The notes under the pieces: generated by a model
Told to the model about the DNA's origin: nothing
Databases searched by the model: none
Seen by the model: the letters and a program-made list of their open reading frames with translations, nothing else
In this document: positions 5,829 to 28,645 of the stretch, in pieces
Layout of the letters: each line of letters starts with the position of its first letter
Numbering within the stretch: the first letter of the stretch is position 1
Program-made: the position numbers and the translations under genes
Source: Acidobacteria bacterium 5-1
GTDB lineage: Bacteria; Acidobacteriota; Blastocatellia; Pyrinomonadales; Pyrinomonadaceae
DNA length: 34,064 nt
Reading direction: 5' to 3'
NCBI GenBank assembly: GCA_002050455.1
Contig: MWZA01000171.1
Coordinates: 1 to 34,064, forward strand

Positions 5829-6521
5829 ATGAGGCTTCACTTTACACTTTCGCCAAACACAAAACCCGTCCCATTTGATTACCAACATTGGCTGACGGGC
5901 GTATTTCACAAATGGCTTGCAGACAATGATTTGCACGATAAAATCAGCCTTTATTCGCTTTCTTGGTTGGATGGAAGCCGAAGAGTCGTCAATCGTTTGG
6001 AGTTTCCAAACGGCGCGAGTTGGTTTGTCAGTTTTTACGAAGACGAATATGTCGAAAAACTTGTGAATGGCGCGTTGAGCGACCCAGAAATGTTCTGCGG
6101 AATGCGCGTCCTGCAAATCCGGCAGCAAACCACGCCCGATTTCGGCACAAAATACAAATTTAAAGTAGCAAGTCCGGTCTTTGCGAAAGGCAAAACTCCA
6201 GCAAATGGCAAACCGCCGCATCATTATCTTTTCAACGAACCGGAAACCGACGCAATTTTAACCGCCACGCTCATTCACAAAATGGACGTTGCCAACCGCG
6301 AAGCCGACGAAGTAAGATTTACCGGCGCAGACAAACAAGTAAAAGTCGGCTTTGACCGCGAGTTTGCAAACCCGAAAATAAAACTCGTCCGCATCAAAGA
6401 CACCGACCACAAAGCAAGCATCTGCCCCATAATTGTCGAAGGCACACCCAAAGCCGTGCGCTTCGCCTGGAACGTCGGCATCGGCAACAGCACGGGAAGT
6501 TGTTTTGGTGCATTAGCTTGA
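5829..6521 (+). CDS. cas6: CRISPR-associated endoribonuclease Cas6
   Basis: MRLHFTLSPNTKPVPFDYQHWLTGVFHKWL... with C-terminal Gly-rich loop GIGNSTGSCFGALA; first gene of the cas cluster. Confidence 0.93.
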   Translation: MRLHFTLSPNTKPVPFDYQHWLTGVFHKWLADNDLHDKISLYSLSWLDGSRRVVNRLEFPNGASWFVSFYEDEYVEKLVNGALSDPEMFCGMRVLQIRQQTTPDFGTKYKFKVASPVFAKGKTPANGKPPHHYLFNEPETDAILTATLIHKMDVANREADEVRFTGADKQVKVGFDREFANPKIKLVRIKDTDHKASICPIIVEGTPKAVRFAWNVGIGNSTGSCFGALA

Positions 6522-6557
6522 TTTGAAAGATATTTGATTAATTTTTTGAAAACAGAC

Positions 6558-6586
6558 TTGACTGTCACGAAAAAATTTTCTATTGT
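6558..6586 (+). promoter_or_regulatory. Candidate sigma70 promoter TTGACT-N17-TATTGT driving the cas6-cas5 intergenic RNA
   Basis: -35 TTGACT 6558-6563, 17-nt spacer, -10 TATTGT 6581-6586; predicted TSS about 6592-6594. Confidence 0.5.
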
Positions 6587-6602
6587 TAAAAAGATTCATT
6601 GC

Positions 6603-6618
6603 TTAGAAAGACCATAGG
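6603..6618 (-). promoter_or_regulatory. Putative CreA-guided Cascade target: minus-strand protospacer ATGGTCTTTCTAA with 5' CCT candidate PAM
   Basis: Minus-strand 6615->6603 matches pseudo-spacer 6665-6677 (ATGGTTTTTCTTA) at 11 of 13 positions; mismatches are at 6 and 12. Candidate PAM CCT is the complement of 6616-6618. Confidence 0.6.
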
Positions 6619-6631
6619 AGTTTGATTGAAT

Positions 6632-6664
6632 CTTTTTAATTGAACCTTATTTAGGAATAGAAAT
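6632..6664 (+). repeat. Degenerate CRISPR repeat (creA-like pseudo-repeat)
   Basis: CTTTTTAATTGAACCTTATTTAGGAATAGAAAT versus array repeat CTTTTAATTGAACCAATGTGGAATTGAAAC; 5' half nearly identical, 3' handle GGAATAGAAAT versus GGAATTGAAAC. Confidence 0.8.
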
Positions 6665-6700
6665 ATGGTTTTTCTTAAATGAACACGAAAAAAGGTGACG
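6632..6700 (+). ncRNA. Candidate CreA-like crRNA-like RNA (pseudo-repeat plus pseudo-spacer; 3' end unknown)
   Basis: Degenerate repeat followed by a sequence whose seed matches the adjacent promoter-proximal region; cas6-cas5 position resembles the CreTA position in known type I-B loci. 3' boundary is arbitrary. Confidence 0.55.
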
Positions 6701-6738
6701 GTCTTGCTATCAACAATTACCCGGCACCTTTCTATTAC

Positions 6739-6822
6739 GAAGGCGTGGCGGAATTAGGTATACGCATCCGATTCTCAATCGGACGGTATTGAACTTTGCG
6801 GGTTCAAATCCCGCCGCCTTCA
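6739..6822 (+). tRNA. Class-II leucine-type tRNA cloverleaf with CTC (Glu) anticodon
   Basis: Acceptor GAAGGCG/CGCCTTC 7/7; T8 G9; D-stem GCG/CGC with GG in loop (TGGCGGAATTAGGTATACGC, Leu-like); anticodon stem TCCGA/TCGGA with loop TTCTCAA; 14-nt variable region; T-arm GCGGG-TTCAAAT-CCCGC; A73; no encoded CCA. Confidence 0.85.
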
Positions 6823-6869
6823 TCATATTTTGACACAAATGTGTGATGTTTCAAACTGAGAGAGGAAGA

Positions 6870-7601
6870 ATGACAGTAGATTTCAAATTTTTACTTAAAG
6901 AACCGGATTTTTCCGTTCGTGGAAAATTGACTATTGAAGCAATCGCGCCGCTTTCGATGGTGGCGAGCTTGCCGGGCAAATACTATCGTAGTCAGCCCGA
7001 ACCAACTCCGCAAATGCTTTATGGAATGATTGAAAACGCGCTGGGTTGGCACATTTCCGTTAAAGAAAGAAATGAACTCGGCAAAAAATTAAAAAAGAAA
7101 TTTGGAACGGAATTGGGAAAATCAGGCGTTGGCTTTGTTAGTTTGTTGCAATTTCATTTGCGTTTCGGAACTTCTTGTTTGCCGCCGCTTCTTCATTTTG
7201 ACGATTATTGGACACAGCATTTGAGAGGCGGCGGCTTTATCGGTGGAAGCAGAAATTATGACAATCGTTTAATTCCACTGATGAACGCGCAGCGTGGCGG
7301 ACAAATCAACATCGGCGACCAAAGCGAAGAGAAAGGTTTTAGCAAAGACCCGAACAAAATTAACGATTTCAAAGACGGCGACGGCGTTCACGTCAATGTC
7401 GTGCGCGACCTTTTTCCGCAATATTATTCCAGCCCGACACCACGCGAATATATTTTGCCGAAAGGAAAATATAAATTCGTCGTCGAAACTTCAAACGCGC
7501 TGGCAGAAATGATTGGCGAAGCAATTGAAAATCCAGCTGCACCGCTTTATTTAGGTTCAAACGACGGTTGGATTGAAGCCGAATGGGAGGTTTTAACGTG
7601 A
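6870..7601 (+). CDS. cas5: Type I-B-like CRISPR-associated protein Cas5
   Basis: MTVDFKFLLKEPDFSVRGKLTIEAIAPLSMVASLPGKYYRSQPEPTPQMLYGMIENALGWH; SD-like AGAGGAAG before ATG 6870 favours this over ATG 6843. Confidence 0.85.
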   Translation: MTVDFKFLLKEPDFSVRGKLTIEAIAPLSMVASLPGKYYRSQPEPTPQMLYGMIENALGWHISVKERNELGKKLKKKFGTELGKSGVGFVSLLQFHLRFGTSCLPPLLHFDDYWTQHLRGGGFIGGSRNYDNRLIPLMNAQRGGQINIGDQSEEKGFSKDPNKINDFKDGDGVHVNVVRDLFPQYYSSPTPREYILPKGKYKFVVETSNALAEMIGEAIENPAAPLYLGSNDGWIEAEWEVLT

Positions 7602-9298
7602 AAGATTTATTGACAAATTTGATTCACCCTTATTCGCGTTATGGTTTGGCGGTTGCTTTGCTGGAAGCCAGAACTTCGCCTGATGAATTAACCGAAGAAA
7701 ATGTTTCCGAATTTCTCGCACAAACTATTGAACTAGGATTAGAAAATTTTAGATTTGCAACTGACGACAATCCGCAAACGACAAACGTTCTGCATTTTTA
7801 TACAATAAAATCAAAAGATTTAAGACAAAACAGCAAACTCATTCAATCCGCCGGACTCGCCGCGCAAGGTAAGTATCTTGCGCCAACCATTTTAACAACC
7901 GATGGTGACGCGAAAGGAACTTTCGACAATGCAATTAAAATTTTGGAGTTGTTGGAAAAGGGTTCGCCACTTGAAAGCAAATATGTTTTGAGCCGTTCTT
8001 TCGCACCGACAACTGCCAAAATCAACAATGGACGCGGTTCGCAATCACCACCGGATGGAACTTTGTTTGAAGCCGCTTGTTCTGTAATTACGACTTTAAC
8101 CAAAATAAAACCGGCAGCTTGGATTGACGGCAGAAATACAATTATTGTTCCTGATTTGTCACTTGAAGAAAAAAATGTTGATGGTCGTAAAGTTATCGAA
8201 TTAAAAAATTTCGTTGACCTTTTTTCTCAAATGATGATAACGGGTCAAAAAGAAGGCTTAATGAATGCCACACTGCAACCAAAAAAGATAAAAGAAAGTT
8301 CCGCCGCAAAAGAAACCGACAAGACAGAAACGGAAGAAAATAAACCCGCGAAATCCGAATATCGTCGCCCAAAAATCTTCAATGGAAATTATCCTTTTGC
8401 GCCGAGAAATTCGGCGTTTGGGGCAATTGGTTTATTAGCGGCAATCGGCAGATGGGGGAAAATGGCGGGCAAAGTTGCTTGGGCAAAGGAAGTTTTAGAA
8501 TCAATCGCCGGAAAAAAGGACGACCCGACAAAACCGAGCCGTCCGCTTTATCTCATCAGTTATGACGCAATCGAGCAAGTTCAATTTACGCATCACGTCG
8601 TCGGACTTTCGGTTTCGGGCGCACTTTCCGAAATGATTGAATCTCTGGCGCGTGAAACCAGACTTTATGCTGATATGGACGGTGATTTTCCAAATCATTA
8701 TGATTCAAAATTCAAAACAAATTATGAACTTTTTGGTTTGATGGCAAACCGTTTTTTACAACTTTTTACTCAACCCGCGTTTCAAGATTTTTTGGCATTT
8801 CGGGCGGAGTATTCAATAAAAATCGAACCACTTTTAAAGGAGTATTTTATGGAAACAAGAAAAATAAATCGTGAAATTGTCGAATCGGCGCGTGCGCTTG
8901 GACAATGGCTAAATCGTATGGCTTACTTTGTCGCAAAAGGCGAAGTAGAAAAAGAGAAAAACTTGTCTGATTTGGAACAAGCTAAGAAAATTCGACAAGT
9001 CAAAGCGAAAATTTTAACTGCAATTGAGAGTGCGGTAATGAGTGCGAAAACTCCACAAGAAATGTTTTCACTCACATCAATTCGCGCTGTCAGACTTTCA
9101 AACGAAGAAATGCCTGCAACAGTATCTATTTTTGAAGATGAGGCAATCGTTGGCGAAAAACTTTCGCTAAAAGACTCAAAACACTTGCTTACTGCTTACC
9201 TACGTTTGCAGTCGTCTTTTGTGAAGAGAGAAAACAAAATGGATTCGACTGAGCAAAATTCGCCAGTCATTGATGAAAAATATCCGATAGAAAATTAG
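7598..9298 (+). CDS. cas8: Cas8-like large subunit of type I (I-B-like) effector
   Basis: Between cas5 and cas7; GTG start overlapping cas5 stop (GTGA) with GGAGG at 7586-7590; helical C-terminus. Annotated by position and size rather than a diagnostic motif. Confidence 0.78.
   Translation: MKDLLTNLIHPYSRYGLAVALLEARTSPDELTEENVSEFLAQTIELGLENFRFATDDNPQTTNVLHFYTIKSKDLRQNSKLIQSAGLAAQGKYLAPTILTTDGDAKGTFDNAIKILELLEKGSPLESKYVLSRSFAPTTAKINNGRGSQSPPDGTLFEAACSVITTLTKIKPAAWIDGRNTIIVPDLSLEEKNVDGRKVIELKNFVDLFSQMMITGQKEGLMNATLQPKKIKESSAAKETDKTETEENKPAKSEYRRPKIFNGNYPFAPRNSAFGAIGLLAAIGRWGKMAGKVAWAKEVLESIAGKKDDPTKPSRPLYLISYDAIEQVQFTHHVVGLSVSGALSEMIESLARETRLYADMDGDFPNHYDSKFKTNYELFGLMANRFLQLFTQPAFQDFLAFRAEYSIKIEPLLKEYFMETRKINREIVESARALGQWLNRMAYFVAKGEVEKEKNLSDLEQAKKIRQVKAKILTAIESAVMSAKTPQEMFSLTSIRAVRLSNEEMPATVSIFEDEAIVGEKLSLKDSKHLLTAYLRLQSSFVKRENKMDSTEQNSPVIDEKYPIEN
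8849..9298 (+). CDS. cas11: Candidate internally initiated Cas11-like small subunit within cas8
   Basis: In-frame ATG 8849 preceded by AAAGGAG (8836-8842) with a 6-nt spacer; would encode a ~149-aa, largely helical C-terminal product. Confidence 0.6.
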   Translation: METRKINREIVESARALGQWLNRMAYFVAKGEVEKEKNLSDLEQAKKIRQVKAKILTAIESAVMSAKTPQEMFSLTSIRAVRLSNEEMPATVSIFEDEAIVGEKLSLKDSKHLLTAYLRLQSSFVKRENKMDSTEQNSPVIDEKYPIEN

Positions 9299-9323: not shown

Positions 9324-10253
9324 ATGGAAATCAAAGGAATACTTGTAACGCTTCTCGCGCCGATGACCGACCACATTGCCAACGGCGGCGAAAAGATTTT
9401 GGGAAACGCTTCGTCAATCAAACAACGTCCTGACGGGCGCGTTTATATTTCAGGACAAAAACAACGCCACGCACTTTTCAGCGCGATGGAACGCTTGAAT
9501 TTTTCAGACGGCAAACGCGGCGAAACTTATGTTTCAAACGGCGACGGCACGACGACAATTATCGAAAAAGATTTACGCGCCGATTTGGGCGGTTTTTTGC
9601 AAACCAAAAAGGAAAGTTATTCAGGACGCAGAACCGCGCCTTTGACCGCTACGCCAGCCGTTGCGCTTGAACCGAGCGAAGTCGGACGCGATTTGTTGAT
9701 TCGTCTGAAAGTCAACGAAAACAAAGACACTCGTGACCAAGCCTTGGCAACCCGTGAATACAGCCAAGACGATATGATGCTGATGAGCTTTTTTATTGAC
9801 ATCGGCGCGGTTAGCATTCGCAAGGATTTCACCTATGAAGGCGAAATGCACTTGCAAACAAATTACAAAAAGCACGTTGACGAAAACGAAAGAAAACGCC
9901 GCGTCAAACTGGCTTTAGAAGCAACAAACTCTTTGACTGATTACGCCAACAACGCCCGAAATGCGACGAGCGGCGAACCGCAGAAAGTTTTAATTGTCTT
10001 CGACTCGAAATTGAGCCGGAAAGCCGCCCGCTATTTCACCGCCGAAGAACCCGAACAGAAAAACATTTTGCGCGAACTTGAAAAACGCAACGCGATTTAT
10101 TTCTTCGGCGACGATACGGCAAGCGAAGGCGACAGCGTTTTTGATGCTTACGAAAAAGCCGCAGAATTCTTGGACGAAAACACTTTGTTTGACCCAAGCG
10201 GCGACGCACAACCGATTACCACCGACGAATATGAGCAGCAATCAAAAGCCTAA
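9324..10253 (+). CDS. cas7: CRISPR-associated protein Cas7 (Cst2/DevR family)
   Basis: MEIKGILVTLLAPMTDHIANGGEKILGNASSIKQRPDGRVYISGQKQRHALFSAMERL, typical DevR/Cst2 N-terminus. Confidence 0.93.
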   Translation: MEIKGILVTLLAPMTDHIANGGEKILGNASSIKQRPDGRVYISGQKQRHALFSAMERLNFSDGKRGETYVSNGDGTTTIIEKDLRADLGGFLQTKKESYSGRRTAPLTATPAVALEPSEVGRDLLIRLKVNENKDTRDQALATREYSQDDMMLMSFFIDIGAVSIRKDFTYEGEMHLQTNYKKHVDENERKRRVKLALEATNSLTDYANNARNATSGEPQKVLIVFDSKLSRKAARYFTAEEPEQKNILRELEKRNAIYFFGDDTASEGDSVFDAYEKAAEFLDENTLFDPSGDAQPITTDEYEQQSKA

Positions 10254-12534: not shown

Positions 12535-12802
12535 GGAAACTAATTACCATTCAAGGCACATAAGTTTGTTGGGTATAATCGGGTATAACATTGACTATGA
12601 TTGATTCTATCGAAAACATCACGATTGAATTTTCGCCGTCGCACGAGATTTTCAGTTTGATTTTTGAAATTGACGAACCTAAAGATTAACGCAATAAATT
12701 CAGATGGATTGGAATTTTATTTTCACTTGGTAGAAATTTGCTAAATTTGAGAATAGGTTTGGCATTTGAGATAAAATTTATGCAATCAATTTTTGGATAA
12801 AT

Positions 12803-12899
12803 CCTTAATTTAATCAGTGTGGAATTGAAACATAGTTTGCAAACTACGCGCTTGCTGTATCACCTGAAACTTTTAATTGAACCGATGCGGAATTAAAAC
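12803..12899 (+). CRISPR. Degenerate two-repeat mini-CRISPR (one 38-nt pseudo-spacer)
   Basis: Repeat 1 ~12803-12831 (CCTTAATTTAATCAGTGTGGAATTGAAAC; divergent 5' half, intact 3' TGTGGAATTGAAAC); spacer 12832-12869; repeat 2 12870-12899 (CTTTTAATTGAACCGATGCGGAATTAAAAC, 27/30 identical to array repeat). Confidence 0.85.
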
Positions 12900-14171: not shown

Positions 14172-14221
14172 ACCGATTGCGGATTGCGGAATAACTATGA
14201 ACTTGGTATTTCGCAAATAAT

Positions 14222-14249
14222 CCAAAATCCAAAATCTAAAATCCAAAAT
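14222..14249 (+). repeat. Dispersed 28-nt repeat CCAAAATCCAAAATCTAAAATCCAAAAT
   Basis: Identical to 28618-28645 and exact reverse complement of 28497-28524; 20-nt core also inverted at 23331-23350. Confidence 0.9.
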
Positions 14250-16170: not shown

Positions 16171-17191
16171 CTTTTAATTGAACCAATGTGGAATTGAAAC
16201 CTCGTCTGAAAAGCACTTCGAAGTTGAATCGCCGTCTTTTAATTGAACCAATGTGGAATTGAAACTCGCAAAGCAGAGCGGGCTTTGTTTTTAAAGCCTG
16301 ACTTTTAATTGAACCAATGTGGAATTGAAACGACTTATTGCGGGCGAAGATTTAGCGGCACTCGATGCCTTTTAATTGAACCAATGTGGAATTGAAACAT
16401 GTGCCGGCACGGTTGGAATCGAAACGGCGGCGAACTTTTAATTGAACCAATGTGGAATTGAAACTCGCCAGTTTTGAAAAACAGCGCAGTCGTTTTTGTG
16501 CTCTTTTAATTGAACCAATGTGGAATTGAAACCAAGTTGTCGTTGCTGTGAAAAAAGATGAAGTTAAACTTTTAATTGAACCAATGTGGAATTGAAACCT
16601 CGATGACTCGCTCAACAAAGAAGTCGTTGGAACGCTTTTAATTGAACCAATGTGGAATTGAAACGATTGCAAAACGCATCACTTCAATTTAACAAGAAAC
16701 TTTTAATTGAACCAATGTGGAATTGAAACGAGGCAAGCGAGATTTTAAGCTATGCCCTTGACCTGTCTTTTAATTGAACCAATGTGGAATTGAAACTCTT
16801 TATTCAAGCCACAGCTATTAAAAAGATTCGCAACTTTTAATTGAACCAATGTGGAATTGAAACACGCTTGAGCAGCAAACGCGCTCTGATTTTGCTCACC
16901 TTTTAATTGAACCAATGTGGAATTGAAACGTTGTTTTCCGCGACTGTTTGCTGCAATCACAGATTCTTTTAATTGAACCAATGTGGAATTGAAACTTGAT
17001 ATACAAATGCCGCCCGTCGCTTGCCCCCCCCCTTTTAATTGAACCAATGTGGAATTGAAACGTTTTTCCAAATGGATTCGATTTAACTTATCGCTGGCTT
17101 TTAATTGAACCAATGTGGAATTGAAACATGAGTTGTTGCCTGACTCCACTTCAAACGCCGACTTTTAATTGAACCAATGTGGAATTGAAAC
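16171..17191 (+). CRISPR. CRISPR array, 16 repeats of CTTTTAATTGAACCAATGTGGAATTGAAAC (30 nt), 15 spacers of 34-38 nt
   Basis: Repeats start at 16171, 16236, 16302, 16369, 16435, 16503, 16569, 16635, 16700, 16767, 16834, 16900, 16966, 17032, 17098, 17162; all appear identical. Confidence 0.99.
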
Positions 17192-28496: not shown

Positions 28497-28645
28497 ATTT
28501 TGGATTTTAGATTTTGGATTTTGGAATGGGCGTAATGCGACTTTGAATAGAAAATTCTGTAACTCAAAAGTTGATATTGATTTCCAGTCTGAAATTTACT
28601 TAAAGTATTTTGTAAATCCAAAATCCAAAATCTAAAATCCAAAAT
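28497..28645. repeat. 149-bp inverted-repeat element with perfect 28-bp termini
   Basis: ATTTTGGATTTTAGATTTTGGATTTTGG 28497-28524 is the exact reverse complement of 28618-28645. Confidence 0.92.

Follow-up and report, generated by a model that had tools for sequence, protein, structure and literature searches.

A candidate CreTA-like module with an aberrant tRNA as its possible toxin in type I cas operons of Pyrinomonadaceae

Introduction

In the type I-B CreTA modules of Haloarcula hispanica and H. hubeiense, degenerate repeats of the CRISPR (clustered regularly interspaced short palindromic repeats) type, one or two in number, lie outside the array, in or near the cas operon, and the CreA guide pairs with a promoter target beside a protospacer-adjacent motif (PAM) through seed positions 1-5 and 7-11, leaving 6 and 12 free; the toxin is an RNA with a mini-ORF (open reading frame) that sequesters a rare tRNA (PMC8501985, PMC9458426). 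Mutagenesis in H. hubeiense showed that, of the first twelve positions, 6 and 12 are dispensable and the other ten are needed (PMC8501985). In the type I-F CreTA of Acinetobacter, a bacterial system, the target lies downstream of the toxin promoter (PMC10097628). CreR RNAs resemble CRISPR RNAs (crRNAs) and direct Cascade to a promoter ahead of cas genes (PMC12737573). CreT toxins are poorly conserved, and few of their mechanisms are known.

Here we describe a stretch of 34,064 nucleotides from the soil acidobacterium Acidobacteria bacterium 5-1 (contig MWZA01000171.1; Pyrinomonadaceae), called the window below, in which the cas6-cas5 gap of an I-PGING-type locus (6522-6869) holds a candidate module of this kind. 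It shares with the haloarchaeal modules the degenerate repeat, the seed pattern, the PAM, the promoter target and the place in a cas operon, with the Acinetobacter module a bacterial host and a target downstream of the promoter, and with CreR a predicted crRNA-like RNA aimed at a promoter ahead of cas genes. A CreTA-like module had been proposed here from the sequence alone, and its promoter, degenerate repeat, pseudo-spacer, target and PAM all proved to lie where they had been placed. That sequence-only reading was right about creA and its target but overlooked a tRNA gene at 6739-6822 and the possibility that the promoter, P1, drives cas5-cas8-cas7-cas3. With these included, we consider it somewhat more likely than not that the module is of the CreTA type and its toxin of a new kind, with Cascade-CreA repressing the promoter of an aberrant, probably mistranslating tRNA and of the cas genes downstream.

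Results

A guide and its target in the cas6-cas5 gap

As read from the sequence, the guide and its target are well supported. The proposed pairing at positions 1-5, 7-11 and 13, with mismatches at 6 and 12 and a CCT PAM, was reproduced (Table 1). The degenerate repeat PsiR1 aligns with the 30-nt array repeat at 26 identical positions and has a handle agreeing at six of eight; its repeat-likeness score is 17.6, and because matches elsewhere outside arrays reach about 17, its identity rests on its position and partners besides the score. The segment 6672-6687 (TTCTTAAATGAACACG) may be the trace of a second degenerate repeat.

Under a first-order Markov model of local composition, a 10/10 seed match is expected by chance with P = 0.0007 in 200 nt and P = 0.0017 in 350 nt on either strand, the PAM not being required. 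The earlier figure of 1 in 4^10 per site was too optimistic since the seed is T-rich, although a caveat about AT-rich DNA had been attached to it. The site read 6615->6603 is the sole seed match near the element; one other exists in the window (3114, plus strand), without a CC PAM. A background scan of 8611 handle-like sites in 1.2 Mb, covering 93 cas loci, gave essentially no comparable match outside arrays and real degenerate repeats, the exception being one 10/10 match (L049 at 122). Its low-complexity filter removed the window pseudo-spacer, so the significance of that pseudo-spacer rests on the Markov estimate. Should the seed match and the tRNA be unrelated accidents, a T-rich pseudo-spacer such as this one, which taken alone is the weakest of the four described here, is where one might look for coincidence; with a seed P of about 0.002, and with three relatives repeating the whole arrangement in different sequences, we regard such an accident as highly improbable.

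Seed pairing is retained in three relatives

Searches with Cas5, Cas7 and Cas6 yielded three further modules, all from the same family as the source: G110 (Acidobacteria gp4 AA16; L043/L047), G001 (L115) and G042 (L129). All four modules sit in or beside a type I cas operon. The G110 module lies upstream of cas6, which is preceded by a separate promoter; it has the promoter TTGACA-N17-TAAAGT, the target TTGCACTGGCTATTGGG, the PAM CCG and two degenerate repeats flanking a pseudo-spacer of about 36 nt, followed by a hairpin and a 70-nt tRNA-like RNA with a tiny D-arm and the anticodon CCA (Rfam 32.1 bits, cut-off 29). The other two belong to type I-B loci, lie between cas8 and cas7, and carry two degenerate repeats and then a hairpin. 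In G001 the promoter is TTGACA-N17-TATAGT, the PAM is CCA, and the hairpin is followed by an 85-nt class II tRNA of the leucine type at L115 3730-3814, with the arginine anticodon UCU (62.5 bits). In G042 the promoter is TTGACT-N18-TAGAAT, the PAM is CCT, and a tRNA-like RNA follows at L129 5493-5565 (minus strand), without D-arm or T-loop, with the acceptor GGCGAGG/CCTCGCC, an anticodon-like loop CTTTCAA (UUC) and a fold z of -5.0. ARAGORN made no call on this element and Rfam gave no tRNA match even at a relaxed E-value; judging from its predicted fold, we read it as a tRNA derivative.

The promoters found at this place in the relatives are better than P1 of the window, and their degenerate repeats have 18 to 22 aligned identities to the array repeat, with handles agreeing at 6-7 of eight positions across loci. 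Pairing extends over positions 1-11 and 13-17 in G110, 1-5, 7-10 and 13-18 in G001, and 1-5, 7-11 and 13-16 in G042. The seed is thus matched 10/10 in three loci and 9/10 in G001; position 12 is mismatched in all four modules and position 6 in three, which is the pattern established by mutagenesis in the H. hubeiense CreTA (PMC8501985). The repeat-like elements, pseudo-spacers and targets all differ in sequence between the modules, and seed pairing is retained; four wholly different seeds, each with its match, indicate that guide and target changed together. Conservation of the match wherever the pseudo-repeat is kept had been named beforehand as a decisive point, and the three relatives that keep the pseudo-repeat also keep a partial match, a CCN PAM and a promoter. 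This common architecture in G110, G001 and G042 supports the CreTA-like interpretation.

An aberrant tRNA or tRNA-like RNA follows creA in every module

A tRNA or tRNA-like gene lies directly 3' of creA in 4/4 modules, and no other companion of the module is as unusual or as conserved. In the Bacteroidetes and Acidobacteriota cas loci that were examined, only those bearing creA have an ARAGORN tRNA between cas genes. A hypergeometric estimate for the link between creA and tRNA (ARAGORN-positive in 3/4 creA loci against none in about 60 others) is about 1e-4; it is weakened by shared ancestry and by the position of the G110 element upstream of cas6, not between two cas genes. A Cas7-based scan of 85,462 species gave 17 loci, all from Bacteroidetes except G110, none with a tRNA between cas genes, and searches with Cas6 and Cst2 over the class and phylum, with seed scans, revealed no further tRNA-type module.

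The window tRNA has a D-loop with GG, a 14-nt variable region in which three pairs are possible, the T-loop TTCAAAT and discriminator A; its anticodon loop, TTCTCAA, presents CUC, which reads the glutamate codon GAG. It and the G001 tRNA are closest to leucine tRNAs and to one another, and among the native tRNAs compared the nearest to it is a G001 leucine tRNA (60 aligned identities). The leucine-type bodies carry CUC in the window and UCU in G001, and neither tRNA thus has the leucine anticodon of a functional leucine tRNA. The source genome carries two ordinary tRNA-Glu(CUC) genes, so the window tRNA is dispensable for reading GAG; the hosts also own genuine tRNA-Glu(CUC) and tRNA-Arg(UCU). 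Bacterial leucyl-tRNA synthetase charges by the tRNA body and A73 and ignores the anticodon, and for this reason both tRNAs should mistranslate. As GAG accounts for 12 per 1000 codons in ten long ORFs of the window, misreading would affect many proteins. Our preference for the tRNA as the toxin rests on its presence in all four modules, on its being aberrant in each in a different way, and on its being nowhere a normal gene of its isotype.

The tRNA-like RNAs might instead be processing signals, excised by RNase P and RNase Z so as to part creA from the cas mRNA, their coding identity being irrelevant. Such processing requires the acceptor and T-arm alone, so that reduced D-arms, as in G110 and G042, would be tolerated. 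However, the window and G001 tRNAs retain a full D-arm, U33, A37, a paired variable arm and A73, and the G042 element has no T-loop, which such processing would require; we therefore hold this explanation to be improbable.

P1, the leader and the antisense strand

The leader between P1 and the pseudo-repeat is a candidate site for a small toxin RNA of the classic CreTA kind, a hairpin with a mini-ORF, beside which the tRNA would be a passenger. The order promoter, creT, creA is that of H. hubeiense (PMC8501985); in the window leader, which also has a hairpin, AGGAG stands five bases before UUG AAU CUU UUU AAU UGA, and the G042 leader folds too. Inspected by eye, however, the four leaders have no shared mini-ORF or rare-codon pair (the window mini-ORF uses common codons), their folds are weak (z -1.3, -0.3, -1.2 and -2.0), and a leader toxin leaves the aberrant tRNA in 4/4 modules unexplained, which makes this an unlikely account. 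We give slightly less credence to autoregulation of the CreR type, in which CreA merely tunes downstream cas transcription and there is no toxin. P1 faces the cas operon in all four modules, no plus-strand promoter was predicted between the window tRNA and cas5, and type I systems are known to possess CreR RNAs (PMC12737573); but the tRNA is again left unexplained, and cas6 of G110 has its own promoter. Such feedback on the cas genes can coexist with a toxin.

In all four modules creA and the tRNA are separated by a hairpin whose T run lies on the minus strand, and one of the four hairpins passes a terminator scan. G001 and G042 share the hairpin loop TGGATTTG..AGCCC, of which neither genome has another copy; it follows that the modules of G001 and G042 are homologous and include the hairpin. 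In the window, G001 and G042, promoter-like sites are directed backwards over the tRNA, although the counts alone, 2-3 against 0.7-1.5 expected in shuffles of both strands, are not significant. An antisense RNA restraining the tRNA could be produced in this way.

Table 1. Features of the module and its cas setting in the window
Feature	Positions	Strand	Remarks
cas6	5829..6521	+	TIGR01877, 1.2e-18
Promoter P1, TTGACT-N17-TATTGT (TTGACT at 6558, TATTGT 6581-6586), predicted repression target	6558..6586	+	scored 9/12, sigma-70-like
Leader between P1 and pseudo-repeat, weak A+T-rich hairpin	6589..6638	+	fold -8.9 kcal/mol, z -1.3
Seed target (protospacer) ATGGTCTTTCTAA	6603..6615, read 6615->6603	-	10/10 seed match, mismatches at 6 and 12
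PAM CCT	6616..6618	-	CCN in all four modules
Degenerate CRISPR repeat PsiR1, predicted to yield 8-nt 5' handle ATAGAAAT	6632..6664	+	
creA pseudo-spacer, starts ATGGTTTTTCTTA at 6665	6665..6687	+	
Hairpin between creA and tRNA, long T run on minus strand	6691..6731		fold -11.1 kcal/mol, z -1.96
Class II tRNA, leucine-type body, anticodon CUC, no encoded CCA	6739..6822	+	ARAGORN; Rfam tRNA 58.5 bits
Possible antisense promoter TTGAAA-N16-CAAAAT, 3' of tRNA	6827..6854	-	near background frequency
cas5 (Cas5p)	6870..7601	+	TIGR03488, 4.1e-30
cas8 (Csp2)	7583..9298	+	TIGR03487, 2.6e-70
cas7 (Csp1)	9324..10253	+	TIGR03489, 1.5e-130
CRISPR array, 16 copies of CTTTTAATTGAACCAATGTGGAATTGAAAC	16171..17191	+	

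Other features of the loci

The cas genes of the window run in the order cas6, cas5p, csp2 (cas8), csp1 (cas7), cas3, and the system is I-PGING by NCBIfam, not plain I-B. Between cas3 and the next genes, a two-repeat mini-array (12802-12899) starts with a divergent repeat, and its spacer opens with the inverted repeat ATAGTTTGCAAACTA. It could be a second regulatory crRNA; as a cas regulator it was set aside, its best target being 9/10 only and within cas4 (13909, plus strand, PAM CCG). An identical 31-nt repeat, AATCCAAAATCCAAAATCTAAAATCCAAAAT, occurs at 14219-14249 and 28615-28645, 14 kb apart. Two exact scans of IMG/VR with the array spacers, made for the PAM, gave no match.

In G001 a short remnant at L115 1557-1628, 67% identical to the window-type Cas6, lies beside a different complete cas6, pointing to cas6 replacement. 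A Saprospiraceae I-PGING locus has repeats between cas6 and cas5 (L059 7166-7476, minus strand), where one repeat is followed by a pseudo-spacer matching the site at 7467 at positions 1-5 and 7-11, with mismatches at 6 and 12 and the PAM CCG; from its sequence this element looks CreA- or CreR-like, without a tRNA. A Herpetosiphon plasmid I-B locus has merely 32 bp between Cst1 and DevR and thus no module. Other tRNAs near cas genes were judged unrelated: that of L121 is near a cas6 with no other cas gene recognised, that of L123 is a normal arginine tRNA adjoining cas6, that of L135 belongs to a type III-A locus and has a cognate leucine anticodon, that of L058 is on the opposite strand, and that of L189 stands at an array end. 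Rfam matches to rteR, Plastid-ycf2 and SNORD124 were under the cut-off.

Discussion

In the mechanism that we propose, P1 would transcribe the leader, creA and, by read-through, the aberrant tRNA together with the cas genes that follow it. Cas6 would cleave the degenerate repeat, and CreA, loaded into Cascade, would guide it to a site just downstream of P1 through the seed (1-5, 7-11, PAM CCN), giving repression without cutting. Once Cascade is lost or blocked, P1 would be freed and the tRNA would accumulate. The window tRNA, charged with leucine, would read GAG by its CUC anticodon and replace glutamate with leucine, and the G001 tRNA would replace arginine with leucine at AGA. In G110 and G042, the tRNA-like RNAs would behave as defective tRNAs and may stall or titrate translation factors. 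The promoter, degenerate repeats, seed match, PAM, tRNA and their conservation in four loci can be read directly from the sequence, and from them we infer processing, repression, read-through into the tRNA, charging and toxicity. Repression of P1 by Cascade-CreA is the best-supported of these steps; the products of P1 (leader, creA, tRNA and cas genes) are less certain. More tentative is the full picture of CRISPR-Cas addiction, in which a Cascade-silenced, leucine-charged tRNA with a foreign anticodon, possibly also restrained by antisense RNA, rewrites glutamate or arginine codons as leucine when Cascade fails.

Several points weigh against a tRNA toxin. The tRNA types differ, two being chimeric, one truncated and one without a D-arm, so that a shared toxic action is not obvious, and the explanation given for the window and G001 does not carry over unchanged to the truncated G110 and G042 forms. 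All four loci come from one bacterial family and are not fully independent. Known CreT RNAs lie between promoter and creA, whereas the tRNA here lies behind creA. Finally, the hairpin could halt part of the P1 transcript, and its minus-strand T run in 4/4 modules suggests an antisense transcript that the favoured model does not explain.

If confirmed, the module would represent a new kind of CRISPR-controlled RNA toxin, a CreT class so far unreported, and corruption of the genetic code would join the ways in which CRISPR-Cas guards against its own loss or against anti-CRISPRs. In the open-access papers searched, preprints excluded, we found no CreTA with a tRNA toxin, the toxins there being tRNA-sequestering or hairpin RNAs, which does not prove absence. 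Aberrant tRNAs within cas operons offer a practical handle for locating such modules.

Divergent tRNAs are also found in tandem tRNA arrays of the same family, and some of them combine a long variable arm with a glutamate or lysine anticodon; such arrays in relatives (L066, L067, L071, L078, L267 and L268) hold about 10-20 divergent tRNA genes, or more. These arrays, however, are long and, as far as seen, not beside cas genes or creA. CreR generally comes without a toxin gene (PMC12737573), whereas a tRNA gene intervenes here, and in Acinetobacter a small hairpin RNA carrying a mini-ORF, and not a tRNA, serves as the toxin (PMC10097628). Compared with haloarchaeal CreTA (PMC8501985, PMC9458426), the PAM is CCN instead of TTC, the hosts are bacteria with I-PGING and I-B systems, and the companion of CreA, in place of an RNA that sequesters a rare tRNA, is itself an aberrant tRNA.
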